Below are positions 17,572 to 39,777 of a stretch of 64,000 nucleotides of DNA, one piece after another. Source of the stretch: Parachryseolinea silvisoli (GTDB taxonomy: Bacteria; Bacteroidota; Bacteroidia; Cytophagales; Cyclobacteriaceae). The position numbers and the translations under genes are program-made. The stretch is from NCBI RefSeq assembly GCF_021190955.1, contig NZ_JAIOAO010000002.1, forward strand, positions 1,488,001-1,552,000, in the 5' to 3' direction. The stretch's first letter is position 1, and each line of letters begins with the position of its first letter. The notes below the pieces were generated by a model, which worked only from the letters and a program-made list of their open reading frames with translations, ran no database searches and was not told the DNA's origin.

Positions 17572-17882
17572 GCAGCCTTCATTTTTTTACCAAAGTATAT
17601 TTCTTAATCCAACCTTGACCGGTTTGTTGTTGTGCGCTGTGCGTCAACAGGCATAATTTTTTAATCTTTTCTTTTCCTGCTGTAAGGGCACGCTCTGTGA
17701 CGTTTGCTATTAGTGTAATTTATAACCAGGCTCTATGGGAGTCTGAAGACTCTCTCCATACCCGGCACGAGTCTCCGCCCCGAGGCGGGGATAAGACTCG
17801 CGGCAGATGCTGGGGACAGCCGATTCATTTATTCAGTTTTCAACGAAAAATAATTAGATGAATAAAATTTACCCCTTTACAA
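17572..17882. other. Intergenic region holding repeat copy A
   Basis: About 310 bases without a gene. The first half is AT-rich and featureless. The second half carries a two-hairpin repeat (17737-17804). The sequence GATGAATAAAATTTACCCC close to the next gene may contain its promoter, but no consensus box is clear. Confidence 0.5.
17731..17810 (+). repeat. Two-hairpin dispersed repeat, copy A
   Basis: Hairpin 1 is GGGAGTC-TGAA-GACTCTC (17737-17754). Hairpin 2 has outer arms CGAGTCT (17768-17774) and AGACTCG (17794-17800) around an inner CCGCC/GGCGG helix. The spacer reads CCATACCCGGCA. Same family as the copies near 33.7, 36.2 and 39.7 kb. Confidence 0.8.
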
Positions 17883-20591
17883 ATGATGAAATCCAACGTC
17901 TTTTTACCGGTGACATGCACGGGTGTGTTACTCTGCGTGATGGCATGCTGCATAAGCTTGTCGCTACGTGCGCAAACTTTTCCTGCCGGCTTTAGCCGGG
18001 TGCAAGTAGCCAGTGTCAGCAACCCAACTGTAATGGCTTTTGCGCCCGACGGGCGAATCTTTGTCGCACAGCAAAATGGCGTCCTGCGTGTTATTAAGAA
18101 TGGAACGTTGCTGGCGACCCCGTTTTTACAGCTTACTGTAAATTCCAGTGGCGAGCGTGGCCTGATAGGCATTGCGCTCGATCCTAACTTTTCCACCAAC
18201 CAATATATTTACTTGTATTATACATTGCCCGATGGTTCGCGCAATCGCATCAGCCGCTTTACCGGCAATGGTGATGTGGTGGTGCCCGGCAGCGAGGTGG
18301 TGGTGCTGAACCTCGATCCGCTCAGTAGCGCGACGAATCATAATGGCGGCGCCATGCATTTTAAGAATGGATTGCTGTATGTGGCGATCGGCGAAAATGC
18401 CAATGGCGCCAATGCGCAGAACCTCGATACTTATCACGGCAAGCTCCTACGCATCAATCCGAATGGATCTATACCGGCCGGTAATCCCTTTACTACTGGC
18501 TCCGAACAACGCCGGCGGGTTTGGGCTTATGGCCTGCGCAATCCGTATACCTTTGATATACAACCCGGCACCGGGCGCGTCTTTTTGAATGACGTAGGGC
18601 AAAGCACCTGGGAGGAGATAAACGACGCCACGACCGGCGGCCGCAACTTCGGATGGCCTACGGCCGAAGGGAACAGCACCAACGCCAATTTTACCAATCC
18701 CGTCTTTGCGTATCCGCATGGCTCCGGCGATGGCACGGGTTGCGCGATTACGGGCGGCGTATTCTTTAACCCGACCTCGACAAACTATCCGGCCCAGTAC
18801 ACCGGTCGTTATTTCTACCAGGATCTTTGCAACCGGTGGATCAATGTTCTTGATCTCTCCGGCGCCACGCCGGTTCGTTCGCCCTTCGCAACAGGGCTGG
18901 GCAACAATGCGCTGAGCATCGATGTAGGGCTGGATGGTAATCTATACTACCTCGAACGCAGCGCGGGCGCTTTGTTCCGGATCATTTATTCGGTGAACAA
19001 TGCTCCCGCGATAGTTACGCAGCCTGCGAGTCAAACGGTAACCGCCGGCCAGCCGGTAACGTTCTCTGTCACGGCCACCGGTACGGCGCCGCTCAGCTAT
19101 CAATGGCAGCGCAACAATGCAAACATTACCGGGGCCACGAGTGCCAGTTATACCATTGCCAATACACAAGCCAGTCATGCCGGTACCTATCGGGTCATTG
19201 TCTCCAATTCCGCGGGCAGCGTCACCAGCAGTAATGCGACACTCACGGTCAATGCCTTTAACGCGCCGCCAGAGGCACAGATCGTTACACCGGCGGCCGG
19301 GGCGTTGTATAGCGGCGGCCAAACCATTCAATTTTCGGGCAGCGCGACAGACCCTGAGCAGGGTACGTTGCCGGCCAGTGCTTTTACGTGGTTTGTGGAC
19401 TTTCATCACGATACACACAACCACGATGGACCTCCGGTGGCATCGGGTGTCACGTCGGGGTCTTTTGTAATTCCTACGAGTGGTGAAACATCCGACAACG
19501 TATGGTACCGGCTATACCTGGTGGTGACAGATGCCGGCGGACTGCGCGATACCGTATACCGGGATATCCTTCCGCGTAAATCGACTATTACCCTGGTGAC
19601 ACAACCGGCGGGCATGCAGGTAACACTCGATGGTCAGCCCGTCACGACACCGATTTCCGATCTGAGTGTAGAAGGCATCGAACGTAGTATCGGCGTTGTG
19701 TCGCCGCAGACCTTCAACGGACAGACGTATGTCTTTGATCGGTGGCTTCATGGTGGGAGCGCCACCCAAACGATCGCTACACCGGTAAACGATGTGACCT
19801 ACACGGCCGTCTACCGTGTGGACACCGGCTTGCGCAATCCCGATAATCCCCCCAGTACGGTGAGCGGTCTGGCGTATGCTTACTATGAAGGTACATGGAC
19901 CGCGCTTCCGGACTTTTCAACATTGACGCCCGTGGAAGTTGGCGGTATTTATTCGCTTACGCTGGCACCCCGCAATCTGCAGTATAACTATGGCTTTCGG
20001 TACACCGGTTTTGTGAATGTGCCAGCCGATGGCAGCTATACATTTTATCTGAATTCCGACGACGGCAGCCGCTTGCTGATCGGCACTACGGTGGTGGTTA
20101 ATAATGATGGTGTCCATACGGCACAAGAAGCCAGCGGCACGATTGGCTTGCGGCAGGGCAAACACCAACTTACGATACTGTACTTCCAGGCCATGAGCTC
20201 GGCTGTACTGACGGCGAGTTGGGCCGGCCCGGGCCTTACCAAGCAAGCCATACCCAACACGGCCTATTCGCGTCTGCCTGTATTACCCTCGCGGGCTATG
20301 GCATCGGTTGACGATGACATGCGTATGGAATCCACGGGCAGCCTGGTGACCTATCCTAATCCAGCCACGCGCGAGCTGTTTGTCGATCTCACGGCAGAGG
20401 AGCCTGGCGCTGTAAGCGTCAGCCTTGTAAGCTTGCACGGCCGCGTGGTGAAGTCACAGCACTTTGCTGAGCTGCCGGCCGGTGCGAAGTCGCTCACGCT
20501 GGAACTGGACGATGTCAGCAATGGGCTCTACCTTTTGCGCGTAGAGTACGCGGGTCAGGTGCGGTCGAAGACAATATCCGTGCTTCACTAA
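17883..20591 (+). CDS. Secreted sugar/sorbosone dehydrogenase-like protein with Ig, PA14 and T9SS sorting domains
   Basis: A 902-residue multidomain protein. Signal peptide at residues 1-30. Residues about 35-370 form a six-bladed glucose/sorbosone dehydrogenase propeller (RIFVAQQNGVLRVI, RGLIGIALDPNF, NHNGGAMHFKNGLLYVAIGE, GLRNPYTFDI), normally using PQQ to oxidise sugars. An Ig-like domain follows (about 375-455, APAIVTQPASQTVTAGQPV), then a beta-sandwich region, a PA14-like carbohydrate-binding domain (about 670-800, YNYGFRYTGFVNVPADGSYT) and the type IX secretion C-terminal domain (about 825-902, TYPNPATRELFVDL to NGLYLLRVEYAG). It is therefore exported to the cell surface, probably for polysaccharide or sugar oxidation. 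Confidence 0.9.
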   Translation: MMKSNVFLPVTCTGVLLCVMACCISLSLRAQTFPAGFSRVQVASVSNPTVMAFAPDGRIFVAQQNGVLRVIKNGTLLATPFLQLTVNSSGERGLIGIALDPNFSTNQYIYLYYTLPDGSRNRISRFTGNGDVVVPGSEVVVLNLDPLSSATNHNGGAMHFKNGLLYVAIGENANGANAQNLDTYHGKLLRINPNGSIPAGNPFTTGSEQRRRVWAYGLRNPYTFDIQPGTGRVFLNDVGQSTWEEINDATTGGRNFGWPTAEGNSTNANFTNPVFAYPHGSGDGTGCAITGGVFFNPTSTNYPAQYTGRYFYQDLCNRWINVLDLSGATPVRSPFATGLGNNALSIDVGLDGNLYYLERSAGALFRIIYSVNNAPAIVTQPASQTVTAGQPVTFSVTATGTAPLSYQWQRNNANITGATSASYTIANTQASHAGTYRVIVSNSAGSVTSSNATLTVNAFNAPPEAQIVTPAAGALYSGGQTIQFSGSATDPEQGTLPASAFTWFVDFHHDTHNHDGPPVASGVTSGSFVIPTSGETSDNVWYRLYLVVTDAGGLRDTVYRDILPRKSTITLVTQPAGMQVTLDGQPVTTPISDLSVEGIERSIGVVSPQTFNGQTYVFDRWLHGGSATQTIATPVNDVTYTAVYRVDTGLRNPDNPPSTVSGLAYAYYEGTWTALPDFSTLTPVEVGGIYSLTLAPRNLQYNYGFRYTGFVNVPADGSYTFYLNSDDGSRLLIGTTVVVNNDGVHTAQEASGTIGLRQGKHQLTILYFQAMSSAVLTASWAGPGLTKQAIPNTAYSRLPVLPSRAMASVDDDMRMESTGSLVTYPNPATRELFVDLTAEEPGAVSVSLVSLHGRVVKSQHFAELPAGAKSLTLELDDVSNGLYLLRVEYAGQVRSKTISVLH

Positions 20592-20620
20592 AAGTTTTTA
20601 CCTTGTCTTAAGTGGCTTCG

Positions 20621-20649
20621 GCCCTGTCAATTTTGGCAGGGCTTTTTTT
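20621..20649 (+). terminator. Rho-independent terminator of the dehydrogenase gene
   Basis: GCCCTGTC (20621-20628) pairs with GGCAGGGC (20635-20642) including one G-T pair, followed by seven Ts. Confidence 0.85.
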
Positions 20650-20666
20650 ATGGTTTATTTTCGGCT

Positions 20667-21110
20667 ATGGACAAACTCATCTGGATCTTTCTGACCTTAC
20701 TGGCGGGTGCTTTCCTGCCGATTCAAGCGGGGCTGAATGCGCGCCTCGGCAAAGCCGCCGACAGCCCTGTCTATGCGGCCATGTTCTCCTTCCTGGTGGG
20801 TGCCCTCGGGTTGATCCTATACATTCTTCTAACACGACAGACCATCTCGTGGGCAGGTGTCAGGGGTGCACCGCTATCGTTGTGGGCAGGTGGCCTGCTG
20901 GGTGCGTTTTATGTTACGGTCATCGTGCTGGCCTTTCCGCGATTAGGGCCCGGGTTGACCTTTGGCCTGGTGGTGGCCGGTCAAATGGTCATCTCGCTGC
21001 TATTGGAGCATTTTAATATCCTCGTGGCAAATCCTTCGCCGATCAACTACATGAAAGTATTGGGCATTGCGTTGATCATTGCCGGTGTAGTTATTCTGCG
21101 GCGTTTTTAG
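20667..21110 (+). CDS. DMT-superfamily YdcZ-type (DUF606) membrane transporter
   Basis: A 147-residue protein with five predicted membrane helices. The opening LLAGAFLPIQAGLNARLGK and the block RLGPGLTFGLVVAGQMVISLLLEHF are the two conserved parts of the DUF606/YdcZ family, a half-size branch of the drug/metabolite transporter superfamily. Such half transporters act as dimers; the substrate is unknown. Its stop codon overlaps that of the convergent epoxide-hydrolase-like gene by four bases. Confidence 0.88.
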   Translation: MDKLIWIFLTLLAGAFLPIQAGLNARLGKAADSPVYAAMFSFLVGALGLILYILLTRQTISWAGVRGAPLSLWAGGLLGAFYVTVIVLAFPRLGPGLTFGLVVAGQMVISLLLEHFNILVANPSPINYMKVLGIALIIAGVVILRRF

Positions 21111-21910
21111 CCGCGTAGCGCACGGAATTTGGTCCGGATGTCATGTACCACGGCGTCAGGATTTTCGATATACCCGAAGTGGCCGTTGCGTTCATGGCTG
21201 TTGTTGGTGAAGTGATCGCGCATGGACGATGCAACCGTGCCTGTAAGCCAGTAGAGCATTGTATTGGTGATTACGTGCTCGTTTGGTTGTGCCCCGACCT
21301 GTAGCCCCTCTGTAAGCCATGCGAGCAGGCCCACAGGCGAGTCGTTAATACCGTAGGCCCATGTTTGCGGGTCCGGTATTTGCACGGTGCGCTGACTTGC
21401 AAGCGGCTCGTGGACCTGGTAGCGCGTATACCCCAGTACGTCGGTCATGAGTGTATGCCACAGGTCGGCGGTCCTCCCGGAATGTATACCCGTATTCGTA
21501 GAGCCTGAAAAGACATGTCCGGGCGGGCTGGGCACGATTACATCAAAGGCATCGTCGGGGTGGCCACCAAAGGCAACGGGGTTTGTCAGTGGTCCAATGA
21601 TGCGTTGCAGATCCCAAAACGATCCGGGCCATCCGTGCGTCAGGATAATAGGAATTGGTTTCGGGCCTATGCCCTTCTGATATAGAAAGTGAATCGGTGT
21701 GCCTTCAATAGGCACCCGGTAATGGGTGTATTGATTCATGGCTGCCTCTATATTGTGCCAGCGGTATTCTGTTTGCCAATAGGCTACCAGGCTTTTGAGG
21801 GAGCTTGCCTGCGCGTCGTTGGGCCAGCGGGTATTCGTCAGTCGGCGTTTGAGATCAGCCAGGGCATGACCAGGTATAGCGATCGTAAACCGGTAGGGTG
21901 ATAGGTCCAT
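21107..21910 (-). CDS. Epoxide-hydrolase-like protein with catalytic core deleted
   Basis: A 267-residue relative of the roughly 380-residue N-terminal-type epoxide hydrolases. The start (YRFTIAIPGHALADLKRRL, TRWPND), HGWPGSFWDLQRIIGPL (oxyanion motif), VPSPPGHVFSG and TMLYWLTGT segments are intact, as is GHFGYIENP with the catalytic His. But GYTRYQVH jumps almost directly to IPDPQTWAYGINDSPVG: the segment with the nucleophile, normally GGDWG, is gone. A second gap lies between SSMRDHF and NGHFGYIENP. Both deletions keep the frame. Hydrolysis by the usual mechanism looks impossible. It is either a decaying gene or a protein with another role. Confidence 0.8.
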   Translation of the reverse strand: MDLSPYRFTIAIPGHALADLKRRLTNTRWPNDAQASSLKSLVAYWQTEYRWHNIEAAMNQYTHYRVPIEGTPIHFLYQKGIGPKPIPIILTHGWPGSFWDLQRIIGPLTNPVAFGGHPDDAFDVIVPSPPGHVFSGSTNTGIHSGRTADLWHTLMTDVLGYTRYQVHEPLASQRTVQIPDPQTWAYGINDSPVGLLAWLTEGLQVGAQPNEHVITNTMLYWLTGTVASSMRDHFTNNSHERNGHFGYIENPDAVVHDIRTKFRALRG

Positions 21911-22031
21911 AGAGAGGTACTCGTGGTATGCTAGATTTCCGACAAATAACGTGTGCGGAAACGACGAAGTAACTATCCATGTCGCCGTGCTGACAAAACC
22001 GGTAGATGTTCTGCCGTGATAGCAGCCGGTA

Positions 22032-24374
22032 TTATTCGCACTTCAGAATCTCTACGGGGTTGGCCACGGCTCCACGGTAGGCTTTAAAAGCCACGACAAA
22101 CGACGCTATACCTATAATGATACTTCCCGGTATCAAAATGAGGGCAATATCAACCGGAATGTGGTATGCAAAGTTTGCCAGCCACCGGTCTGCGACAACG
22201 TAGCCGATCGATAACCCTATTGTTGTATCGGCCAGTACGATCCTGATAAAATCTGTGGACAACAATGTAATAAGCGAGGCCGTAGAGGCGCCGTGCACCT
22301 TGCGGATGCCAAGCTCTTTGGTCCTCCGTTCGACGTGGTGATAGGTTAAGCCCAGTAGCCCCAAAATAGAGAGCGCGATGGTGAGCGTGGTGAAATACAG
22401 GAACAATACCTGAAGATTCTTGTCGGATGTATATTGGGCGTCGAAGTATTCGTCCAGAAAGAAATACTCCAGGGGGTGATCGGGAAACAATTTTTTCCAA
22501 AGCACCTGGATGCTGGCCAATTGGTCGGGTGAGGTCTTTAGGTAGAAGTAGCGTACGTCGGGATTTTTATAGTCCATTTCAAATATTGCCAGGGGCTCGA
22601 TCTTGTTGTGCAGCGACTGGAAGTGATAGTCTTTGAGTACCCCCACGACGGCGCCCTCACCGGCATATGTCTTTACCGTTTGTCCGATGGCGTCGGTCCA
22701 TCCGGCATGCTTTACAAAGGACTCGTTGACCAGTACACGCCGTGTGCCCTGTTCGTTGTTGTCGAACGAGTTTCCTTCTTTTAGCTGAAGATGTAAAAGT
22801 GCGGGATAATTTTTATCTACGATGATGTTGGGAACGATCAGCTCCCGTTTGTCGGCGCCCTTGCCCAACCACAGTGGCGAGGCCAGCGGGTCTGTGGTGC
22901 CGATGTTCGACGCAAAACCGCCCACGCTTATACTCTGCGTGATGCCGCTCTCCAGGAACGCTTGCGTGTAGTATGTCAGGTTCTTCGCAACCAGCGTGTC
23001 GGGCGGCGCGGCGATGGCTAAGATACCTTTCTTCGAAAATCCCAGCTCGTACGTACCCATGAATCGCATTTGTAGGATGACGGCCACGAGGAATACCAGC
23101 AGCCCTGCCGAAAGTGTAAATTGCCCAATGGTAAAAACCTTTTGTACGATAGACTGGTTTGCCATGACCCTTCCTTTCAGGGCTTTCACGGGGCGGAACG
23201 ACGAGAGTATGATGGCGGGATAAAGCGATGCTGCCACCGCAATCAGGATCAGGAATAACAACGCGGCGCCTATGATCCAGCGGTCGGTTGTATTCGAAAA
23301 CTGTATGTGTTTACCGGAAACGATCTCGAATATGACGCCCAGGAGGTTGATAAAGAGAATGCCCAGTACTGCGGCCGACAAGACGGAAACGAAGGACTCG
23401 CTCAGAAATTGCCAAATGAGCTGGGATCGGTATGCCCCCGTCACTTTCCGGATGCCTACTTCGCGGGCACGTTCCAGGGATCGTATGGTGGTCAGGTTGA
23501 TAAAGTTGAAGACGGCCACAACAACCAATACCAGGGCCACGGCGCCAAAGATATATACATAGGATTTGTTGCCCTTGGGGTTGTCCATTTCTGTGCCATG
23601 AAAGAAGTGCAGGCTTGTAAGCGCTTGCATGTCGTAGCCCATCTTCACTTCCTGGCCGGCTTGTTTGTGCAAGCCTTCTGCCGCTGTGGGAAGCTGTGCC
23701 TGGATGAAGCCTGCGTCGCCGGGTGAACGGAGCAGTATATAGGTGTCGTATAAAAAGCTTAGCTCGGACGTTTCTTCACCGTCGAATCCTCCATAGACAA
23801 AAGCGCTTATAAACTTGTCGCTATTTGCCGGCGGATCGGACATGATGCCCGTAATGGTATAACTGTCTCCGTCTATTTCCAGGGTCTCGCCCAGGGCGAA
23901 TCCGTGTGGGAAATATTTATCGGCCAGCGATTTTGACAGTACGATGGAGTGGGGCTGACGCAAGGCGGTATGGGCGTTACCTTCTATTAACGGGTAGGTA
24001 AATACATCGAATACTTGCGGGTCTGTTTTGGTGATGCCTTTTTCTTTTATTTTGTTTTTACCGACCCGTCCATCCATGGTTTCAAGCCGGACGTACTGTT
24101 CCACCTGCGGAAAGTTTCGTTGCAGGTACGGTCCTAATTTCTGATGGGTAAACCGAAGGTTCTGTGTGTTGTCGGGGGTAATGAACGTTTGGGTAAGGCG
24201 GTAGATGCGGTCGGCGCGTTGGTGAAACCGATCGTAGGTCAGCTCGTCGTATAGATAATAAAAGATGAAGAGGAAGCTGGCGAGGCTCAGGGCAAGTCCT
24301 CCGATGTTGATGATCGTGAAGAGCTTGTATTTGCCCATGTTCCGCAGGGCAACGAGTAGGTAATTTTTGATCAT
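22032..24374 (-). CDS. MacB/FtsX-family ABC transporter permease without prefix domain
   Basis: A 780-residue permease beginning MIKNYLLVALRNMGKYKLF; the frame runs on to 24425 but the ATG at 24374 matches the paralogues. First membrane helix about 21-43, first FtsX unit around FNFINLTTIRSLERAREVGIRKVTGA (about residue 285-310), second around VERRTKELGIRKVHGAST (about 675-695). The C-terminus is VANPVEILKCE. The first periplasmic part has DRFHQRADRIYRLTQTF, as in the other family members here. It has no partner ATPase nearby. It ends the minus-strand group with the DinB and SDR genes upstream of it. Confidence 0.88.
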   Translation of the reverse strand: MIKNYLLVALRNMGKYKLFTIINIGGLALSLASFLFIFYYLYDELTYDRFHQRADRIYRLTQTFITPDNTQNLRFTHQKLGPYLQRNFPQVEQYVRLETMDGRVGKNKIKEKGITKTDPQVFDVFTYPLIEGNAHTALRQPHSIVLSKSLADKYFPHGFALGETLEIDGDSYTITGIMSDPPANSDKFISAFVYGGFDGEETSELSFLYDTYILLRSPGDAGFIQAQLPTAAEGLHKQAGQEVKMGYDMQALTSLHFFHGTEMDNPKGNKSYVYIFGAVALVLVVVAVFNFINLTTIRSLERAREVGIRKVTGAYRSQLIWQFLSESFVSVLSAAVLGILFINLLGVIFEIVSGKHIQFSNTTDRWIIGAALLFLILIAVAASLYPAIILSSFRPVKALKGRVMANQSIVQKVFTIGQFTLSAGLLVFLVAVILQMRFMGTYELGFSKKGILAIAAPPDTLVAKNLTYYTQAFLESGITQSISVGGFASNIGTTDPLASPLWLGKGADKRELIVPNIIVDKNYPALLHLQLKEGNSFDNNEQGTRRVLVNESFVKHAGWTDAIGQTVKTYAGEGAVVGVLKDYHFQSLHNKIEPLAIFEMDYKNPDVRYFYLKTSPDQLASIQVLWKKLFPDHPLEYFFLDEYFDAQYTSDKNLQVLFLYFTTLTIALSILGLLGLTYHHVERRTKELGIRKVHGASTASLITLLSTDFIRIVLADTTIGLSIGYVVADRWLANFAYHIPVDIALILIPGSIIIGIASFVVAFKAYRGAVANPVEILKCE

Positions 24375-24439
24375 GGGGCAGGTTATGGCTATATAACGAC
24401 AGGTAACCGGGCTTGTTGCCCCCATGATGGGGTGGGGAA

Positions 24440-24820
24440 CTAACCTCGGGTTTTGTATAAGATATAGTCCGTCGCCAACGGTTCAAGTCCTGTTTGCCTG
24501 AATTCCGTCGCGATCTGGCCGCGGTGATAGGTGGCATGGTTCAGTGCGTGGAACAAAAGATCGCGCACGGGGTGACGGAAGACGTCGCCGCGGAAAGTGT
24601 ACTCGGTGACTTCGTCAGGGTCAATGGTCGTGAGGATGCGCAGTGTGTGGTGGTAGTTTTCGTTATCAATGGTTTGTAACTGGTCCAGGGAATGTACTTG
24701 CCAAACGCCAAACGGATTTGGCTTTTTATCGATCCTATAATTCCATATCTGGTGGGCGTTTAGGATGTGGGAGAAAAGTTTTACGCATTTTTCTGACACC
24801 TGGTCAGCGTGCAGGGTCAT
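24440..24820 (-). CDS. DinB-family protein, conserved N-terminus lacks a start codon
   Basis: The ATG at 24820 gives 126 residues of a DinB four-helix bundle, with LFSHILNAHQIWNYRI, and the metal-ligand His in HALNHATYHRGQIATEF. Upstream in the same frame the sequence still reads family-like, SFLEELFTYNNSVNKALIEA (24880-24821), which is the usual first helix carrying one metal ligand. No ATG, GTG or TTG precedes it in frame as far as the SDR gene. So either a rare codon such as ATT is used, or the start was lost and only a shortened protein is made. Known DinB/YfiT proteins are metal-dependent thiol transferases or hydrolases. Confidence 0.75.
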   Translation of the reverse strand: MTLHADQVSEKCVKLFSHILNAHQIWNYRIDKKPNPFGVWQVHSLDQLQTIDNENYHHTLRILTTIDPDEVTEYTFRGDVFRHPVRDLLFHALNHATYHRGQIATEFRQTGLEPLATDYILYKTRG

Positions 24821-24942
24821 TGCTTCGATTAGGGCTTTGTTTACGGAATTATTATACGTGAAGAGCTCCTCGAGGAAGGAAGGGGATGGTGCGTTCTTGG
24901 GTTTTGAAACGGATGTGTAGGGCGTGGTGTTGCGTTCTAATG

Positions 24943-25695: not shown

Positions 25696-25750
25696 GGGAT
25701 CGAATGATTTTGTGAAATGATGTGCAAAAGAAGCTTGTGCCGTCTAATTT

Positions 25751-25761: not shown

Positions 25762-25795
25762 CAGGTCTTTGTATGGTACGAACAAACGTGTAAGT

Positions 25796-26167: not shown

Positions 26168-26174
26168 TATATTC

Positions 26175-32384: not shown

Positions 32385-32462
32385 GTGTTGATTAATCTAC
32401 GGGGGCAATATAGCTATTATCGGGAGAATCTTTGCGATCCTATCGGGAGCCATTGCTATAGA

Positions 32463-33209
32463 CTAAATACTTCGGGTTTTAAACGCACGATGTTCATTGC
32501 GCTCGACGTAGCCTAGCGGGTTTGTTGTCAGTATAGTTTGGCCAATGGTAAGATCCTGGAGCGTCTCGTGGGTATGCGCGAAGATCCAGTGTGTTGCGCC
32601 CGAGGTTTCGATCATGTCATGCAGTTCTGTGGCAAATGCTGTGTTGAGCTCGCTGTGGCGGTAGCGTTCCGGGTAGTTTAGAAATGTGGGACGGTGGTGC
32701 GTGATGACGATGGTTTGGTGTGTGGTGGGTGTTAGCTCGGTTTGGAGGAAATTGAGTGCGTTTGCATGGAGAGCGTTGTAGTCGTCGATGTTTATTTTTC
32801 GGCCATTTATGGTAATGAGCTTGAAGTCAGACATTACTTTTTTGATTACCAGTTCTTTTGTTGGATCGATCTGTGACCAGAGCGTGGAGAACACCAGGCG
32901 GGTGCCCTGGTGGATGATGGTTGTGTTGTTGAGTAAGGTGACGTTGCTGCGGATGTTTTCCTGGAAGGAGCCGGTTCGTTGGTGGAAGTCCGACCGATAG
33001 TATTCATGGTTGCCGGGGAGCCAGTAGACATGCTGGAAGTTGTCGGATAGGGAGTCGAAGAATGTTTGTTCGTGTTCGATGTGGGTGAAGGGCATGACAT
33101 CGCCGGCAAGGATCAGGATGTCGCCGACCGGCTCGATGGGATGTTTGCTCAAATGGTTTTTGTTTGCGGGGAATTCGAGGTGGAGGTCGGAGCAGTATTG
33201 GATTTTCAT
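32463..33209 (-). CDS. Metallophosphoesterase
   Basis: A 248-residue calcineurin-like phosphoesterase. All five metal-binding blocks are visible: SDLHLEF (D-x-H), ILAGDVM (G-D), LPGNHEYY (G-N-H-E), VITHHRPT and WIFAHTHE (G/A-H-x-H). It has no signal peptide, so it should be cytoplasmic. The substrate is not predictable. Its Kup neighbour is 79 bases away with the same orientation. It follows the truncated antitoxin-like ORF by 58 bases. Confidence 0.92.
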   Translation of the reverse strand: MKIQYCSDLHLEFPANKNHLSKHPIEPVGDILILAGDVMPFTHIEHEQTFFDSLSDNFQHVYWLPGNHEYYRSDFHQRTGSFQENIRSNVTLLNNTTIIHQGTRLVFSTLWSQIDPTKELVIKKVMSDFKLITINGRKINIDDYNALHANALNFLQTELTPTTHQTIVITHHRPTFLNYPERYRHSELNTAFATELHDMIETSGATHWIFAHTHETLQDLTIGQTILTTNPLGYVERNEHRAFKTRSI

Positions 33210-33267
33210 TGGCGTGTGTCGGATGGGAAAGCTACGATTTTAATTGTGATGTGGCAGGGCTAACTGT

Positions 33268-33480
33268 TTATACGTTTATTGGACTAAGTCCATGTTTTGC
33301 ATTAGACTGATCATAGACCTGCTTAAGGCTGACTTCCATTAGCTCTCCGGTCATAAATTCTTCGCCCGTGTCCTGGCATTTGTAGAAGAATTCTGTAATG
33401 GTGAATTTTTCTTTTCTGAATTCAACTTCTCTTTCGGCGTAGCACAGAATGGCTTGTCCGTTGGTGATGGGGCTTCTCAT
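33268..33480 (-). CDS. Orphan N-terminal domain of an MqsA-like antitoxin, probably truncated
   Basis: A 70-residue product reading VEFRKEKFTITEFFYKCQDTG and TGELMEVSLKQVYDQSNAKHGL. This resembles the N-terminal domain of MqsA/YgiT-like antitoxins in Bacteroidota, which continue into a helix-turn-helix domain of about 60 more residues. Here the frame stops 5 residues after that point, and I see no helix-turn-helix remnant in the next 60 bases. There is no adjacent toxin gene. It could be a decayed antitoxin or a stand-alone domain. Confidence 0.5.
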   Translation of the reverse strand: MRSPITNGQAILCYAEREVEFRKEKFTITEFFYKCQDTGEEFMTGELMEVSLKQVYDQSNAKHGLSPINV

Positions 33481-33772
33481 GTGAGTATTGGTTAACGTAT
33501 ATATGAAGGCAATAATTATTTTAACTGATAACAGATTCTAAAATAATAGCGATAGTCTTAGTCCGGTATGGTAGATGAGGGATTTTTTATGACTTACTGT
33601 GGATAATTTATTTTGTGGTGACTTTGCTTTTTTTTAACCAGCGATCGGTTTAGTAGCCGTGCTCCACGGCAGTCTGAAGACTGTCACCATGCTGGGCACG
33701 AGTCTCCGCCCGTGACGAGCTAAGACTCGCCAGGTTTTGACTTTCTTGTTGATGGCGCGTACTTTTCGGGGT
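33481..33772. other. Intergenic region with repeat copy B
   Basis: About 290 bases without a gene. The first 160 are AT-rich and may hold the promoter of the minus-strand antitoxin-like ORF. The remainder contains repeat copy B and the promoter-like TACTTTTC box (33760-33767), five bases before the VOC start codon. Confidence 0.5.
33658..33734 (+). repeat. Two-hairpin dispersed repeat, copy B
   Basis: Hairpin 1 is GGCAGTC-TGAA-GACTGTC (33668-33685). Hairpin 2 has arms CGAGTCT (33699-33705) and AGACTCG (33723-33729). The spacer CACCATGCTGGGCA matches copies A and C. Confidence 0.8.
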
Positions 33773-34186
33773 ATGAAACAACGCATTGCCCAACTTGCTC
33801 TTGTCGTACGCGATTACGACGAGGCTATTAAATTTTATACAGAGAAGCTTTCCTTCGAGCTTATCGAGGATACGCGTATGCCCTTGGAGAAACGTTGGGT
33901 GGTGATTGCGCCGCCGGGGTCTACGGAGTGTTGTTTGTTGTTGGCGAAGGCAACCAATGAGGCACAGCTGGCCAGTGTTGGGAATCAAACGGGCGGCCGC
34001 GTATTTCTTTTTCTCTTTACCGATGATTTCTGGCGTGATTATCACGCCATGACGGCGAAGGGAATTCGGTTTACGGGGCCGCCGCGGGAAGAGGCGTATG
34101 GTACGGTGGTTGTGTTTGAAGATCTCTATGGCAACTTGTGGGATTTTATACAACCCCGTGACGCCAACAAAAGCAACAGACCGTAA
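33773..34186 (+). CDS. VOC-family (glyoxalase-like) protein
   Basis: A 137-residue VOC protein. RIAQLALVVRDYDEAIKFYTEKLSF is the classic opening of the fold, and the C-terminal VVVFEDLYGNLWDFIQP carries the conserved D-x-x-G-N-x-W-x-[FL]. It resembles glyoxalase/bleomycin-resistance family members of Bacteroidota with a substrate that cannot be predicted. The ATG at 33773 (MKQRIAQLALVV) is preferred over one 36 bases upstream. It ends directly against the convergent DinB gene. Confidence 0.87.
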   Translation: MKQRIAQLALVVRDYDEAIKFYTEKLSFELIEDTRMPLEKRWVVIAPPGSTECCLLLAKATNEAQLASVGNQTGGRVFLFLFTDDFWRDYHAMTAKGIRFTGPPREEAYGTVVVFEDLYGNLWDFIQPRDANKSNRP

Positions 34187-34726
34187 TTAATTCTTCAACG
34201 CAATCTTGATATGCTCGAGGTGATGCTTTACGTGCCATTCCGACATCGCGATGGCCTGGCGTTGATCGAGCGTGATCTTGCGGACAGGGTGATAGTACGA
34301 TACATTCAGTTGCTCTTCGGTAAGCGACTTTGCCAGGAAGACAAAACGCTTTACGAGATTTTCAAACAAATCCAGTGAGTCCGCTATTGGCGAGTTAACA
34401 CCGTCATATGTTTTGGCCCAGCCGTCCATGCTTACTAAAGTGAGCTCTTTGTAGTCGGGTTCGGTGAGGGCTTTCTTCATGCGGAAGAGATGCAGCATTT
34501 GCATGTCGGCTACGTGGGCCAGCAACTGTTGGATGTTCCACGAGCCTGTGCGATATGTCTTTTTTAACTCCGCGGGAGAGAGGTTGGCGGTGAGGGCGCG
34601 GTAACGCGCGGGGGCAGTCGCTATGGTCCCGATCATGGCGTCTAGGTCGGCCGGGGTGATCGTAGGCTTTGGCGTGAAGGGGCCGATGGGAAATTTGAGG
34701 GCGGTGTCGTCGGTGGTGGTCGTCAT
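34187..34726 (-). CDS. DinB/YfiT-family putative metal-dependent hydrolase
   Basis: A 179-residue YfiT-type protein. The N-terminal FPIGPFTPKPTITPADL, the SWNIQQLLAHVADMQM segment with a metal-ligand His, and the C-terminal SEWHVKHHLEHIKIAL with the His-x3-His pair are the family core. Members include bacillithiol transferases and hydrolases. A good promoter box (TATCTTTG on the minus strand, 34749-34756) lies 22 bases upstream. Stop codons of this gene and the VOC gene abut exactly. Confidence 0.9.
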   Translation of the reverse strand: MTTTTDDTALKFPIGPFTPKPTITPADLDAMIGTIATAPARYRALTANLSPAELKKTYRTGSWNIQQLLAHVADMQMLHLFRMKKALTEPDYKELTLVSMDGWAKTYDGVNSPIADSLDLFENLVKRFVFLAKSLTEEQLNVSYYHPVRKITLDQRQAIAMSEWHVKHHLEHIKIALKN

Positions 34727-34748
34727 GGCGTTGGGTTGTCGTTGAATA

Positions 34749-34756
34749 CAAAGATA
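34749..34756 (-). promoter_or_regulatory. TAnnTTTG promoter box of the YfiT-like gene
   Basis: Minus-strand TATCTTTG, exact consensus, 22 bases before the start codon at 34726. Confidence 0.55.
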
Positions 34757-34926
34757 CGGGATTGCGGGTTATTAGGTTGCTGTGATTAACCAGTGATTTT
34801 TACTGGATATCGGTAAAATATTTTCCAGCTAAACGAAAAGTAAGCGGGTTTTAAATATATTTATCGTACGTCAACCTCTTCGTCCGGTCGCTATGAAACA
34901 TTGCGCTGGAAGAAATATATTTTGAA

Positions 34927-36003
34927 ATGAACCAGAAGCGCATTCACCAGGCCAAAGAAGTACTCACCATTGCTATTGTTTGGATGCTGCTGACTTTTTT
35001 GTATGTGTACGTTAAATTCAACGATATTCCTGATTTATACCTGGCAGAGATTTATCACATGAAGCCGGGCCTATCAAAAGCGGATTTGTATCGTATTTCT
35101 TTTTTTGTGTCACTGCCGATTGGGTTTGTATTTGCCTGGCTTCACACTTTTGTTTATCCGACTATTGATCGCACCCAAAGTCTGTTATTTAACATCGGTA
35201 TCAGACTGTGTATTTTTTTTCTGATAGCCGTTGTAGTCTTTTATGCATTGTCATTTATGAATAATGATGGTGGTGAACATGGTGTTGAATTTTCAAGTAC
35301 CATGGTGAGCGGCCCCGTACTCAATATTCTTATCTACACTCTACTGATTGAGAATTTAATTGGAGTATTCATTTTATTGCGGCGAAGTCTCGGCATTAAT
35401 TTCTTTCTAAATACGATTACCAATACGTATCGAAATCCGAAAGAAGAAGAGCGGGTTATGATGTTTCTGGATTTGGAAAACTCTACGCCGATGGCGGAGA
35501 AGTTGGGGCACCTTACTTTCAGTCGCTGCCTTCAGGATTGTTTCCTCGAACTGTCGCATGTAGCCATAGCCCATGGTGGTGAGATTTACCAGTTCGTTGG
35601 TGATGAGGCTGTCATTACCTGGAAAGTATCCGGGCGTTTCAATTACTGGAAGTGTGTTGACTTGTATTTTAATTACATGAAACAATTGAGGGCAAAGGAA
35701 ACTGTGTTCCTTCAAAAGTATGGGTGTGTTCCTGTATTCCGGTGTGCGATTCATGCAGGTGTAGTTTCCACTGCATTGGTAGGAGATTACAAGAAGGAGA
35801 TCGCGTATCATGGCGAGGTGCTCCACTTGTGCTCACGACTGAGGTCTGTTTGCAAAGAGCATGATGCGCACGTTTTAATTTCTGGAGCATTTCGAGCGAG
35901 TGCCGCCCATGTCACACAATACATCTCGCAAAGCGTTCCCTTGTTGGAGCTCAAAGGGATAAAAGGTCCGCAAGTAGCTTACAGAATCCGGGAAGGCGCA
36001 TAA
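34927..36003 (+). CDS. Membrane-anchored class III adenylate/guanylate cyclase
   Basis: A 358-residue protein with four membrane helices (about 12-31, 57-77, 87-111, 128-150) followed by a class III cyclase catalytic domain (about 175-350). The metal-binding Asp residues sit in MMFLDLENST and YQFVGDEAVITW; the transition-state region reads YHGEVLHLCSRL. These agree with bacterial CHD-domain cyclases. Substrate (ATP or GTP) is not predictable from what I see. No signal-receiver domain other than the membrane part is present, so that part is the likely sensor. Repeat copy C lies after the gene. Confidence 0.88.
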   Translation: MNQKRIHQAKEVLTIAIVWMLLTFLYVYVKFNDIPDLYLAEIYHMKPGLSKADLYRISFFVSLPIGFVFAWLHTFVYPTIDRTQSLLFNIGIRLCIFFLIAVVVFYALSFMNNDGGEHGVEFSSTMVSGPVLNILIYTLLIENLIGVFILLRRSLGINFFLNTITNTYRNPKEEERVMMFLDLENSTPMAEKLGHLTFSRCLQDCFLELSHVAIAHGGEIYQFVGDEAVITWKVSGRFNYWKCVDLYFNYMKQLRAKETVFLQKYGCVPVFRCAIHAGVVSTALVGDYKKEIAYHGEVLHLCSRLRSVCKEHDAHVLISGAFRASAAHVTQYISQSVPLLELKGIKGPQVAYRIREGA

Positions 36004-36150
36004 CAATACCCTGCCCGTTCCCTTTCACTTTGCCCGCTTCACCACGAATTGATTATGTGCTTTTCCCGATTCCCTAATGCTCAGGGTAGGCTACGCGTAT
36101 TTGTTGGCTGTTGTTGGGTGTGGTGGGGTTTCGGTACGACGTTGCCGTGT

Positions 36151-36220
36151 GGCGGTCGGGAGACCGCCCCCATACTGGGCACAAGTCTCGCCCGAGGCGG
36201 GCTAAGACTTGCGCCCGATG
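36151..36220 (+). repeat. Two-hairpin dispersed repeat, copy C
   Basis: Hairpin 1 is GGCGGTC-GGGA-GACCGCC (36151-36168). Hairpin 2 has arms CAAGTCT (36182-36188) and AGACTTG (36205-36211), an inner CGCC/GGCG helix and an outer GGGC/GCCC clamp (36177-36180 with 36213-36216). It lies between two convergent gene ends. Stem bases differ from copies A and B in pairs. Confidence 0.85.
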
Positions 36221-36228
36221 TATTCTAG

Positions 36229-37116
36229 TTATTTATAGGCTTGCTTGATGACTTCGGCGGCGGGGGTGGTTTTGCGGCCGAGGATTTTTTCGAGGTCGTT
36301 TGTTTTGTGATCGAACTCGCCGTTGGCGATGCCTTGTCCGAAGCTGGAGACGATGGCGATGATCGGTGCGGGTACGCCGTGGCCGGCGAGGGTCTGCTCG
36401 AACTCTTTTGCATCGGGGGAGATATACGCAATCTTCTCGCCGGTGGTCTCTGATAGGATCTCCGCTATCTGTGCAAAGGTTATGGCCTCGCTGCCGTTGA
36501 ATTCGTAGATTTTATTGACGTGCGGCTGTGGATTGGCAAGGATGTTTGCTTCTGCTTCGGCAAAGTCTTTACGGGGCACAAAGGCTGTTTTGCCGTGGCC
36601 GGTAGGCTGGTATACGGTTTTGCTCTGTAACAACTGTTCTTTTGCGCCCAGGAACAGTGGTACGACTTCGGCGTACAGGTTGTGACGGAGTAAGGTATAG
36701 GAGAGACCAGATTCGAGGATCCACTTTTCGGTTTGGGCATGTGCCTGTACGACCAGGTGCAGTGGGGCAGAGGCCGATTCGTCTTTGCGGACGGTGCTGG
36801 TATAGAGTATATGTTTTACACCGGAGGCTTTGGCCATGGTCACGACGTTTTGGTGTTGTGGCAAGCGGGCGTGTACGTCGCTGCCCGATACGAAGTATAA
36901 AACTTCGATGCCTTGAAAGGCGGCGGCCAGGGAGGCAGGATCGTTGTAGTCGCCACGGCGGACGTCGAAGCCCTGGGCGCGGAATTGCTGGGCTTTTTCG
37001 CCTTGGGTGTCGCGTACAAGTACGGCGATATTTTCGACGGCGATCTTGTTCTTCAGGAAAGTTGCTACGGCGCTGCCGAGTCCACCGGTAGCACCTGTAA
37101 TCAATGTTTTTGCCAT
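36229..37116 (-). CDS. NmrA-like SDR, QorB-type NAD(P)H quinone oxidoreductase
   Basis: A 295-residue atypical SDR. N-terminal TLITGATGGLGSAVATFLKN binds NAD(P). It contains VLYFVSGSDVHARLPQHQNVV, KHILYTSTVRKDES, and the substrate-side ITFAQIAEILSETTG near the C-terminus, as in NmrA and QorB (E. coli YtfG). QorB reduces quinones with NADPH. It is divergent from an HxlR gene, the same layout as ytfG/ytfH of E. coli, so that assignment is supported by context. Confidence 0.85.
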   Translation of the reverse strand: MAKTLITGATGGLGSAVATFLKNKIAVENIAVLVRDTQGEKAQQFRAQGFDVRRGDYNDPASLAAAFQGIEVLYFVSGSDVHARLPQHQNVVTMAKASGVKHILYTSTVRKDESASAPLHLVVQAHAQTEKWILESGLSYTLLRHNLYAEVVPLFLGAKEQLLQSKTVYQPTGHGKTAFVPRKDFAEAEANILANPQPHVNKIYEFNGSEAITFAQIAEILSETTGEKIAYISPDAKEFEQTLAGHGVPAPIIAIVSSFGQGIANGEFDHKTNDLEKILGRKTTPAAEVIKQAYK

Positions 37117-37171
37117 GTTTTTAAGCGTTTTTAGTGATATTCTATGGAATGTTGCTATAAAAAAGTTTATT

Positions 37172-37188
37172 ACTTACTTTTGGTAAGT
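37172..37188. promoter_or_regulatory. Inverted repeat between NmrA/QorB-like and HxlR genes
   Basis: ACTTAC (37172-37177) and GTAAGT (37183-37188) form a dyad with TTTTG between them, 55 bases before the QorB-like ATG and 92 before the HxlR ATG. It is the likely HxlR operator. Confidence 0.5.
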
Positions 37189-37279
37189 CAAAGGTATGTG
37201 CTTGATTTTGAGGGGACAAGAAGTTACTCACACGTCAGGCACTTACCTGCGGGTAACTCTTGTTGATAATGAAGGTGTT

Positions 37280-37651
37280 ATGACGGAAAATATTTTGAAA
37301 AAATATTCGGAGACGGTCGATTGTCCTGTCCGGAATGTGCTGGATCGCTTCGGCGACAAGTGGTCGACGCTGGTGATTTTGATTTTGGGTGATGCGGGGA
37401 CGCTGCGTTTTAATGAGCTGCATCGTCTGATGGAGACGGTGTCGGAGAAGATGCTTACGGTTACGCTCAAGAAGCTCGACGCTGATGGCCTGGTGAAGCG
37501 TACGCTTTATCCCCAAGTGCCGCCGCGTGTTGAGTACGAGCTGACGGAGCGTGGTCGGAGCTTATTGCCTTTGCTGCAAGGTCTTGTGGTTTGGGCCAAC
37601 GAAAATATGCCGGAGATACAGAAGTCGCGGGAGCAATACCAGGCGGCCTAA
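37280..37651 (+). CDS. HxlR-family transcriptional regulator
   Basis: A 123-residue HxlR protein: conserved Cys in SETVDCPVRNVLDRFGDKWS, recognition helix TLRFNELHRLMETVSEKMLT, and wing RVEYELTERG. It probably controls the divergent QorB-like gene; the shared Cys in this family can sense quinones or aldehydes. The reading frame is open to an ATG at 37196, but MTENILKKYSE at 37280 is the usual family start and leaves the operator upstream. Its stop overlaps that of the convergent acyltransferase gene by 4 bases. Confidence 0.88.
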   Translation: MTENILKKYSETVDCPVRNVLDRFGDKWSTLVILILGDAGTLRFNELHRLMETVSEKMLTVTLKKLDADGLVKRTLYPQVPPRVEYELTERGRSLLPLLQGLVVWANENMPEIQKSREQYQAA

Positions 37652-38610
37652 GCTGGTAATAGCAGGTGCCGCAGTGGTGTGAGCACGTGAAGTATGAACG
37701 CCTGGTGAAATAACAACGGTAAGGGTACTATCAACAGGCCCATTACCCATACACGCGAAAACACAGGGTGCTTTAAAAAGCGTTGTAACCCGGTTGACTT
37801 TGCCTCGGCCAGCATGGCGGCAGCGTGTAATGCAAAATAAAGCATAGGGAGCCCGTAGCCGGCATTTACCGGAAGTGAGATGGCTATTTCATGGAGCAAT
37901 CCAGAGAGTAGAAATGAGAGCAGCATGGCTTGCTCGGCACTTATCGTTTGCTTCAAGGGGCGGTATGCTATCTGTGCGGTCATTTCCGAGAAGGCCATGT
38001 TCCAACGCTTGCCCCAGAACTCGCGCAGTGATGCAGACTTATAGGGTGACCGGAAAAGCTCTTGTACATCGACACCTTGCGCACGCCAGGCTGCCGTGGA
38101 TAAATTGAGGATACCGAAATGCAGGATCATGCTGATTCCGACCAGCAACAGAAGCTGCGGAATAAAAAGTGTCGTCGCGATGGCAAAGTGTTCCGTAGTC
38201 ACGGAGAGGTATAATAGGATCAGCCCTATCGCGATACGAATCACTCCCTTTATTATAAGTCTGCTGTGGGGTAGAGTAATGCTGGGAAGCCGCTCGAAGG
38301 GAGCGGCTCGCATGCCGAACCAGCCGAGGGCGAATGCCAGCCACTGAAATACTTTTAGGCGGTTCTCGCCTGAGTATGTTTCTACGACAACCAGGACTTT
38401 CATGGATAACAACTGGAGGAATACGATGACAACCATTCTCAACAGGGCGGACTGATCGGTTGTGATAAAGGAGGAGAACCATACGGTGGTGCATGCGATT
38501 GTCCAGGCCAACGTCCGGGCTATGAATTTCTTCTTTAGAAATGGGAGGTAATAGCCGACGGTGATCAGCAGGAGAATATAGACCGAAAGGAAAATGACGA
38601 GTGTGTTCAT
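37648..38610 (-). CDS. MBOAT/wax-synthase-like membrane acyltransferase
   Basis: A 320-residue protein with about eight membrane helices. LFRSPYKSASLREFWGKRW, WNMAFSEM and the His-containing LLSGLLHEIAIS are the signature of wax-synthase-type (MBOAT_2) acyltransferases, which move acyl chains to alcohols; the His in LLHE is the catalytic residue. The substrate here is unknown. It overlaps the 4-helix protein gene upstream by 4 bases, so the two form a translationally coupled pair. Confidence 0.8.
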   Translation of the reverse strand: MNTLVIFLSVYILLLITVGYYLPFLKKKFIARTLAWTIACTTVWFSSFITTDQSALLRMVVIVFLQLLSMKVLVVVETYSGENRLKVFQWLAFALGWFGMRAAPFERLPSITLPHSRLIIKGVIRIAIGLILLYLSVTTEHFAIATTLFIPQLLLLVGISMILHFGILNLSTAAWRAQGVDVQELFRSPYKSASLREFWGKRWNMAFSEMTAQIAYRPLKQTISAEQAMLLSFLLSGLLHEIAISLPVNAGYGLPMLYFALHAAAMLAEAKSTGLQRFLKHPVFSRVWVMGLLIVPLPLLFHQAFILHVLTPLRHLLLPA

Positions 38611-39029
38611 GCAAGTGTGTGTAAGAATGCTAGGAAATAAATGACCGTGAAACTGGCGAACATGCTGACCAGGCCGATCTCGCCCAGCGTGTATATAAAT
38701 CCCTTCGGGGCTTGTGATCGATCAAAGTACAGGAATTGAATCCCGATCCGGGTGAGCCAATACAGTGCTATAAATAAGGTCATACTTTTGGCCAGGAAGG
38801 AATGTCCTACTAATTCATTTCCTCCCCCTACCGAGACAATCCCGAAACAGAAGTTGATGACCAGGATATAGCCAGCATAGGTCCAAAACATTTGTCGCAG
38901 CAGGGGCTGCAGGTTCTTTAAATGTTCACGCCACTGCAGTGCCTTGGGAACGAACAGGCTGCTGAGGCACAGGATGAAATGGCCGATTCCAGCCCAAAAG
39001 ATCAGTTTTACGAGAAGTGATTCGGTCAT
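38607..39029 (-). CDS. Four-helix membrane protein, unknown function
   Basis: A 140-residue protein with four predicted helices (LIFWAGIGHFILCLSSL, FWTYAGYILVINFCFGIVSV, SMTLFIALYWLTRIGIQFLYF, LVSMFASFTVIYFLAFLHTL). I do not recognise a family. Its stop codon overlaps the start of the acyltransferase gene, which suggests that it is a partner of that enzyme. It is divergent from an SRPBCC gene. Confidence 0.7.
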   Translation of the reverse strand: MTESLLVKLIFWAGIGHFILCLSSLFVPKALQWREHLKNLQPLLRQMFWTYAGYILVINFCFGIVSVGGGNELVGHSFLAKSMTLFIALYWLTRIGIQFLYFDRSQAPKGFIYTLGEIGLVSMFASFTVIYFLAFLHTLA

Positions 39030-39133
39030 GGTTTCGGCGTTTGCTCTAGTACACGAATAAGATTAGCTTAAAGTTTCAATATTTATTGAAACTTTGATAA
39101 CCCGGGATTTTCTTTTTCGTATATTCTGGTAGA

Positions 39134-39709
39134 ATGCCACTGATTGAATTAACGACGGTTATCCATGCACCCATCGAGCGGTGTTTTGATTTGGCGCGCA
39201 GTATTGATTTGCATAAGCTTTCGACAGACGGTACAGAAGAAGAGGTTGTCGATGGTGTAACATCAGGTTTGATCGGTATGGGGCAGTATGTAACCTGGCG
39301 TGCGCGGCATTTTGGTGTTACGCAGACGTTGACGTCTAAAATTACGGGGTATGAGTATCCGATTTATTTTCGCGACGAGATGGTGAAAGGGGCTTTTAAG
39401 ATGATCTGCCATGATCACGCCTTTGAAAGCTCGGGCGATGATACAATCATGAAGGATAGATTTGAATTTGAGTCGCCGGCGGGAATACTCGGAGTGATGG
39501 CGAATAAATTGTTTCTGGAAAGGTATATGCGGGACCTTCTTATTAAGCGCAACGCGGTTATAAAGGAGGTTGCTGAGGGGGGGAGATGTGGCGAGCTGTT
39601 CTGTCGAGAAGATGGTGATTCGTTGTTGGTGGTAGGGGGGTGTGGTGTGAATTCACTAATTCACTACGCCAGTCTGAAGACTGGCATCAGGGCAGGCACA
39701 TTCCGATAG
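39134..39709 (+). CDS. SRPBCC-family protein with an abnormal C-terminal extension
   Basis: A 191-residue product. Residues 1-152 are a START-like domain: IELTTVIHAPIERCFDLARSIDLH, GQYVTWRARHFGVTQTLTSKI and FESPAGILGVMANKLFLERYMRDLLIKRNAVIKEVAE, which is the normal end of this family. The next 39 residues are unrelated to the fold; the last 16 (from SLIHYASLKTG) are encoded by repeat copy D, which provides the stop codon. The gene appears to have lost its own stop and to be read into the repeat. The ligand is unknown. Confidence 0.75.
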   Translation: MPLIELTTVIHAPIERCFDLARSIDLHKLSTDGTEEEVVDGVTSGLIGMGQYVTWRARHFGVTQTLTSKITGYEYPIYFRDEMVKGAFKMICHDHAFESSGDDTIMKDRFEFESPAGILGVMANKLFLERYMRDLLIKRNAVIKEVAEGGRCGELFCREDGDSLLVVGGCGVNSLIHYASLKTGIRAGTFR

Positions 39710-39755
39710 CTATCGGAACGCCCTCCCTTCGGTCGGAAGACTTGCGCCAGGGAAG
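39663..39755 (+). repeat. Two-hairpin dispersed repeat, copy D, with an inserted palindrome
   Basis: Hairpin 1 is GCCAGTC-TGAA-GACTGGC (39668-39685). The right arm of hairpin 2 is present (AGACTTGCGCC, 39738-39748), but in place of its left arm there is an 18-base perfect palindrome, TTCCGATAGCTATCGGAA (39701-39718). Confidence 0.75.
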
Positions 39756-39777
39756 TCACTATAACTATATAATTACT

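Follow-up and report, generated by a model that had tools for sequence, protein, structure and literature searches.

Dispersed two-hairpin repeats of Parachryseolinea silvisoli are very probably REP elements of a Bacteroidota RAYT

A stretch of 64,000 nucleotides from the genome of Parachryseolinea silvisoli (hereafter the window) holds four copies, A to D, of a dispersed repeat made of two hairpins joined by a spacer. Our analysis indicates with high confidence that these repeats are repetitive extragenic palindromes (REP elements) belonging to a REP-associated tyrosine transposase (RAYT) of Bacteroidota, and that the RAYT locus on contig C7 of the same genome is their REPtron. This interpretation is preferred because the family comprises at least 95 copies, the RAYT gene carries inverted copies on its flanks, and the copies are found between genes, close to stop codons and partly as inverted doublets. 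It is preferred also because the subtypes differ by paired changes, element and RAYT tend to occur together in related genomes, orthologous sites differ, and foot types cluster on the RAYT tree. We infer that the RAYT most likely spreads the repeats. The original prediction, which had left the choice between a small RNA, an mRNA element and a REP-like element mobilised by a distant transposase, is supported in the last of these.

A search for a REP-associated tyrosine transposase found a single RAYT (TnpA-REP) gene in the genome, located at C7:1173387-1173935, on a contig other than that of the window, and encoding a protein of 183 amino acids. The profiles PF01797 (Y1_Tnp) and NF047646 (REP_Tyr_transpos) each match the genome once, both at this gene, the latter with 104.4 bits against a cut-off of 80; the window itself has no such gene, as had been predicted. 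The HxH, W and Y..NP motifs (H60, H62, Y145, N149 and P150) are invariant across 15 aligned sequences including this protein. A phmmer comparison of its sequence with the PDB returned nothing at 0.001. A predicted structure of the 69% identical L077 protein of Chryseosolibacter histidini, a relative and not the P. silvisoli protein itself, has a mean pLDDT of 92.2, and its best PDB match is 4er8, a REP-associated tyrosine transposase bound to a REP hairpin (E 6.8e-08). The gene is flanked on each side by an inverted copy of the unit (C7:1173298, minus strand, 76.5 bits; C7:1174013, plus strand, 65.9 bits), with hairpin 1 facing the gene and the CCAG/CTGG end facing outward.

The repeats form a large family. 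In the genome of 7.95 Mb, the hairpin-1 core AGTCTGAAGACT is found 39 times and the reversed pattern once; for the hairpin-2 pattern, the counts are 13 and none. A covariance model built on 30 copies gives at least 95 matches at E up to 0.01, so the family is not confined to the window; as only 150 of 2121 candidates were scored, this number is a minimum, and two of the 95 overlap another match on the opposite strand. At least two further copies exist beyond the 95, at C9:475240 and in L191. The matches are divided equally between the strands (48 plus, 47 minus). Most copies are single, and among the nine pairs of non-overlapping neighbours lying less than 100 nt apart, eight are inverted; in six of these the CCAG ends point away from each other, the arrangement seen at the RAYT. 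Eight pairs of copies are 93-96.5% identical over the unit while their 30-nt flanks are just 10-43% identical (ungapped comparison of equal-length copies). We find a short imperfect palindrome in many intergenic copies, as is characteristic of REPs, together with the inverted doublets characteristic of bacterial interspersed mosaic elements (BIMEs) and REPINs.

Each window copy consists of a short hairpin 1 (7 bp if complete), a spacer of about 8-12 nt, a longer hairpin 2 and a CAG or CCAG end (CCCG in copy C); the loop of hairpin 1 mostly has 3-4 nt. Read on the other strand, the unit starts with CTGG, followed by a long stem that includes a fixed G·T wobble, then the spacer and a second hairpin. 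The foot could be parsed in 90 copies (five of the 95 could not be parsed) and is GGCAC/GCGCC in 55, GTCAC/GCGCC in 16 and GGTCC/GAACC in 11, with eight other types once each. The fourth foot pair is A·C in 76 copies, C·A in 11, G·T in one and A-T in two (one of the latter, by our reading, from a wrongly parsed copy whose tail is shortened), so that 88 of 90 copies have a non-Watson-Crick pair here. On the CTGG strand, the A·C and C·A pairs read G·T and T·G. With DNA parameters, that strand forms the more stable fold in 88 of 95 copies, at a mean of -20.6 versus -18.4 kcal/mol. The arms of hairpin 2 in the 75 parsed copies that lack the palindrome described below are AAGTC/GACTT in 19, GAGTC/GACTC in 12, AAGTT/AACTT in 10, AAGAG/CTCTT in nine, AAGTA/TACTT in eight, AAGTG/CACTT in five, AGGTG/CACCT in three and AGGTC/GACCT in two, with seven other types once each. 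Hairpin-1, foot and loop types combine in many ways across the 95 copies, as if copies exchanged modules by recombination.

In the alignment of 30 copies, 27 of which had been chosen by a pattern fixing part of hairpin 1 and the tail and three of which are window copies A to C, standard pairs fill 97.9% of the 476 pair cells (shuffled mean 88.2%), and sliding one arm by 1-3 columns lowers the paired share to 24-36%. Two-sided changes are present at 7 of 16 pairs (shuffled mean 3.8; 2 of 500 shuffles as high) and in 40 cells (shuffled mean 11.7; 0 of 500 as high), which confirms the predicted pairing of stem changes. Further pair types do not exceed the shuffles in these 30 rows (11 versus 10.4). 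The selecting pattern left free the inner arms as well as the outer hairpin-1 pairs at columns 5-20 and 6-19, which carry 15 and five two-sided changes, respectively.

Structural constraint is still the best reading of these paired changes, because one foot pair remains non-Watson-Crick in nearly all parsed copies while its neighbours change in pairs. Template switching within hairpins during replication (quasi-palindrome correction) can make paired changes as well, and could have produced the pattern with no selection on structure. The scarcity of half-changed intermediates is what it would leave behind: in hairpin 1, 12 of 637 cells hold a G·T or A·C pair, and in hairpin 2, 7 of 675 do. However, the same process should also repair the fixed mismatch, which instead persists, A·C flipping to C·A together with its neighbour; moreover, the copying of whole subtypes accounts for the missing intermediates too. 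We therefore regard template switching as unlikely to explain the repeats, though it may contribute to their variation.

With regard to gene context, as judged by a simple and rough codon-usage gene caller, 92 of the 95 copies share no more than 10 nt with any predicted gene, whereas 84.5% of random places in the same stretches (window excluded) overlap one. There are 34 convergent, 50 tandem and five divergent sites, three at stretch edges and three overlapping genes. Adjacent gene 3' ends (n=118) lie at a median of 39 nt from a copy, and 5' ends (n=60) at 153 nt. The proximity to 3' ends, with 34 convergent and just five divergent sites, would suit terminators or stabilisers of mRNA 3' ends that are useful to the host whatever their origin. 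However, the same pattern is expected if insertions survive only where they are harmless, T-runs directly behind the unit are occasional by eye (uncounted; C5:2164982 has one), and the sites differ between related genomes, as described below. Such a role is improbable as the explanation of the family, and compatible with REP elements as a side function.

Within the genus (seven genomes), the element is present in the five genomes that have a close RAYT or a broken remnant of one, and was not found in the two that have neither. Counting model matches at E up to 0.001 and giving the identity of the best RAYT match, there are 88 matches in P. silvisoli itself (100%), 134 in G149 (three RAYTs at 70-72%), 15 in G148 (70%), 14 in G150 (73%) and eight in G127, which retains broken RAYT pieces only (57% and 46%); G074 and G151 have no matches, and their best RAYTs are at 32% and 34%. 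Among 148 genomes of the family, examined with stricter filters, 26 have model matches. The element is found in 8 of the 10 other genomes having a RAYT of at least 62% identity and in 17 of the remaining 137, and model matches adjoin the RAYT in several relatives, for example G085, G053 and G039.

Synteny with G149, where aligned pieces are 75-85% identical, allows single sites to be compared. No unit is seen at the places orthologous to copies A, B and D. The place of copy C holds a unit of another subtype (GGTCC-GAGTC/GACTC-GAACC), reading GGTCCGAGTC...GACTCGAACC in G149 where the window has GGCACAAGTC...GACTTGCGCC. The flanks of two of the three G149 RAYTs were also compared. At locus L247, both flanks have hairpin 1 GGCGGTC/GACCGCC, and the hairpin-2 arms are CCGGTC/GACCGG in one flank and CCGGTG/CACCGG in the second; at locus L241, both flanks have hairpin 1 GGCAGTT/AACTGCC, and the hairpin-2 arms are AAGTC/GACTT in one and AAGTT/AACTT in the second. 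Two RAYTs of one genome are thus flanked by different subtypes, and the changes read as compensatory are therefore largely RAYT-tied differences between subtypes. The claim that paired changes imply selection on structure accordingly needs dividing: constraint remains the best reading, on the evidence of the foot pair, while many of the paired differences separate REP subtypes and are not steps within one lineage.

Another possible reading is a structured RNA, a dispersed small RNA or mRNA element whose fold is kept by compensatory changes. The covariation in the 30-copy alignment, the position of many copies directly behind stop codons and the greater stability of the CTGG strand with RNA parameters too (90 of 95 copies) would fit such an RNA. 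However, Rfam gives no match to a small RNA or riboswitch, neither at gathering score in the window nor at E up to 10 in 33600-39850, the stretch without copy A. The two orientations are equally frequent, copies adjoin the 3' ends of genes on either strand, and at the 50 tandem sites 20 copies run along the direction of the genes and 30 against it, in the orientation of the original prediction. Together with the flanking of the RAYT by the same unit and a presence in the genus that tracks the RAYT, this makes a structured RNA very unlikely, and the small RNA proposed earlier is not supported.

The association of hairpins with RAYTs extends beyond the family. We collected 110 RAYT loci (30 + 80), and after dropping six truncated ones kept 104, with 101 differing proteins; at least five pairs look like one locus from two collections, being identical or nearly so on the tree. 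An outward-facing hairpin with a CTGG foot lies within 300 nt of the gene at 49 of the 104 loci, compared with 0, 1, 0, 1 and 0 in five letter-shuffles (flanks under 100 nt skipped, one irregularity allowed), and CTGG is the commonest foot among outward hairpins at these loci. In the imperfect ones among such hairpins, position 4 holds G·T in 30 and T·G in 11, position 3 holds T·T in 11 and position 6 holds T·G in six; four rarer irregularities make up the rest. A second perfect hairpin follows within 50 nt on the gene side in 21 of 64 cases and on the outer side in six (shuffled average 2.45). On the RAYT tree, the 49 labelled loci group by foot type, with eight changes against a shuffled mean of 23.3 and 0 of 200 shuffles as low, a clustering helped by near-copies. 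Allowing up to two mismatches, the CTGG hairpin of another RAYT, that of G033, occurs 12 times in its own genome, four of them beside that RAYT, and is present in 9 of 148 genomes, though not in that of P. silvisoli. A short, dispersed, intergenic repeat could in principle also be a miniature inverted-repeat element of an ordinary (DDE) insertion sequence, but the unit flanks the RAYT gene and CTGG hairpins often accompany RAYTs in this phylum; on these two associations, this possibility is judged extremely unlikely.

Two side observations concern these loci. The GGTCC/GAACC foot matches the GGTT foot beside RAYTs of Algoriphagus and its kin, while the lone RAYT of P. silvisoli has another foot; the copies carrying it are apparently orphans of a lost REPtron. 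L149, from a metagenome-assembled genome labelled Thalassovita (Pseudomonadota), has a RAYT nested among those of Bacteroidota on the tree, owing either to horizontal transfer or to a mis-binned contig.

Several points weigh against assigning the repeats to the RAYT. The canonical GTAG is absent: neither GTAG nor GTGG stands at the 5' foot, which is CTGG on the best-folding strand. Half-changed pairs carry no strand signal, with six G·T and six A·C in hairpin 1, and four and three, respectively, in hairpin 2 outside the foot position. The model search favours paired stems, so the genome-wide pair counts are biased towards structure. Under the stricter filters, G121 and G132 have a close RAYT and no model match; conversely, the 17 other family genomes mentioned above have the element and no close RAYT, and G084 has five matches with no RAYT match at E 1e-10. 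Intergenic regions have diverged from G149, so an absent copy could reflect decay and not an empty site. Across the phylum, 55 of the 104 loci lack a CTGG hairpin under our rule, many of them having other inverted repeats; 24 of 86 CTGG hairpins in relatives are perfect, with no wobble; and the two-hairpin form is common, not general, under the strict rule. Finally, the 11 parsed copies of the GGTCC subtype have no matching RAYT left in the genome.

Under the REP interpretation, the strand reading 5'-CTGG-stem-spacer-hairpin-3' would fold when single-stranded, for instance on the lagging-strand template, and the HUH/Tyr enzyme would recognise the CTGG foot together with the G·T-interrupted stem. 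The RAYT might then cleave, the CT of CTGG sitting right at the stem boundary, and join the cleaved unit or doublet elsewhere. By analogy, the G·T pair may take the role of the bulge in E. coli REPs. Several past RAYT/REP pairs would have left several subtypes, which is why the differences between them look compensatory.

The four copies in the window lie where they had been predicted, as confirmed by both sequence and model matches, and all are on the plus strand. Copy A (17734..17806, 74.1 bits) has hairpin 1 at 17737-17754 (GGGAGTC/GACTCTC, loop TGAA) and hairpin 2 at 17764-17804 (foot GGCAC/GCGGC, arms GAGTC/GACTC), with the tail CAG; its substrate strand is predicted to be the minus strand, CTG end first. 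Copy B (33665..33733, 73.1 bits) has hairpin 1 at 33668-33685 and hairpin 2 at 33695-33732 (GAGTC/GACTC) with a shortened right foot side and the tail CCAG. Copy C (36148..36217, 68.7 bits) represents a different subtype, with hairpin 1 at 36151-36168 (GGCGGTC/GACCGCC, loop GGGA), hairpin 2 at 36178-36215 (GGCAC/GCGCC, AAGTC/GACTT) and the unit end CCCG. Copy D (39665..39750, 46.1 bits) has hairpin 1 at 39668-39685 (GCCAGTC/GACTGGC, loop TGAA) and hairpin 2 at 39695-39748 (foot GGCAC/GCGCC, tail CCAG). The layout proposed earlier, hairpin 1, spacer and hairpin 2, holds in all four; the TGAA loop fails for copy C, and the outer arms CGAGTCT/AGACTCG fail for copy D, where the left arm has been lost to the palindrome TTCCGATAGCTATCGGAA (39701..39718).

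In 16 of the 95 copies, this perfect palindrome or its counterpart TCCCGATAGCTATCGGGA stands in place of the left arm of hairpin 2, and the difference between the two forms means that the palindrome itself has been altered in pairs. We considered the palindrome GATAGCTATC as a separate dispersed repeat and rejected it: in 304,947 bases of the genome, 16 of its 18 occurrences are within catalogued copies, and the other two fall in the uncatalogued copy in L191 and in a catalogued copy clipped at a stretch edge (L205).

The copies had been described as lying between genes, which does not strictly hold for copy D. It is entered by an open reading frame (ORF) at 39134-39709 (191 aa), whose stop is the TAG within the palindrome of the copy and which has a weak Polyketide_cyc2/SRPBCC-like match (21.5 bits, below the cut-off of 27.4). 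The ORF that G149 has at this site (L232:1903-2379, minus strand, 158 aa) stops earlier, and no element is present there. Copy C carries a 5' extension (36119..36147, plus strand), about GTGTATGGTTNCNCAGGTTACGACGTTACCG by eye. In an upstream comparison of the 95 copies, such an extra stretch of about 30 nt ahead of hairpin 1 is common to a minority, among them C8:408705, C9:286493, C5:1931144, C5:1870848, C5:1221837, C5:1871921, C9:58709 and C13:148482; it may fold into a small third stem containing a T·T mismatch. Two larger differences from the syntenic G149 contig are also seen around these copies: 58 bases stand in place of window positions 34778-36186, which include a guanylate-cyclase-like gene (34927-36003), and nine bases in place of 37650-39120.

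It is possible that these features describe Bacteroidota RAYTs more widely. We suggest, tentatively, that these enzymes may use a bipartite single-stranded substrate of their own, a CTGG stem marked in many lineages by a strand-specifying wobble near the foot (G·T, T·G or T·T) plus a second, spaced hairpin, that RAYT and REP subtypes co-diversify, and that the paired changes may be switches of specificity and not the result of selection on an RNA. Compensatory-looking changes among dispersed repeats can, more generally, arise from REP subtypes instead. In our judgement, the biology of REPs rests mainly on the GTAG repeats of Proteobacteria; REP repeats as such are already known, and the Bacteroidota form has its own anatomy. 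With these parts in hand, in a genus where some species lack both a close RAYT and the element while another has three close RAYTs (the two compared differ in their flanks), the rules of recognition can be tested through exchanges of stems and feet.

Our literature searches, which covered main texts and few subscription papers, turned up no description of REPs with CTGG at the foot; among the RAYT papers listed in one of them, none has a word beginning with CTGG. The GTAG- and CGTC-tagged REPs and TIRtrons (Di Nocera et al. 2013, PMC3733652), so far as the text consulted goes, share with the present family the alternative complementary stem residues and the sites downstream of and between unidirectional and convergent genes. 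Unlike them, the P. silvisoli repeats have neither a GTAG nor a CGTC tag at the foot; the CGTC repeats are reported there from Bacteroidetes among other phyla, apparently with no dedicated transposase.

The E. coli system of REPs, BIMEs and REPtron (TnpA-REP group 2), as presented in PMC8266576, is similar in having a RAYT with REPs around it, intergenic copies, inverted doublets and an imperfect palindrome. E. coli TnpA-REP recognises a folded single strand in a strand-specific manner, needs an unpaired stem position and cleaves at CT, which is also the common cut site of other RAYTs. By analogy, we would expect the P. silvisoli enzyme to behave likewise, with the unpaired state mattering for recognition and a strand-specific substrate. 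Unlike the E. coli REPs, the foot here is CTGG and not GTAG, a single G·T at the fourth foot position stands where those have a mid-stem bulge, and the unit has a second hairpin.

The closest known group is subclass 2.6 of TnpA-REP (Bertels group 5) of Bacteroidetes, described in the text of Quentin et al. (2018, PMC6006769) as flanked by atypical structures that lack GTAG and recur at other places in the genome. The two have in common a Bacteroidetes RAYT of about 180 residues with HUH, WQ and YIH.NP motifs and flanking hairpins in which GTAG is missing; compared by description, our RAYT agrees in motif, length and phylum, but SHVH replaces NH.H. That text calls the structures weaker and gives no foot motif, second hairpin or fixed wobble, although its Table S1 may list identical ones. 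Relative to the text, Table S1 being outside the comparison, the CTGG foot, the fixed wobble and the paired hairpin are apparently new. REPs that had been noted there merely as atypical can now be given their parts: a foot, a likely strand, a wobble, a second hairpin and co-variation with the enzyme.

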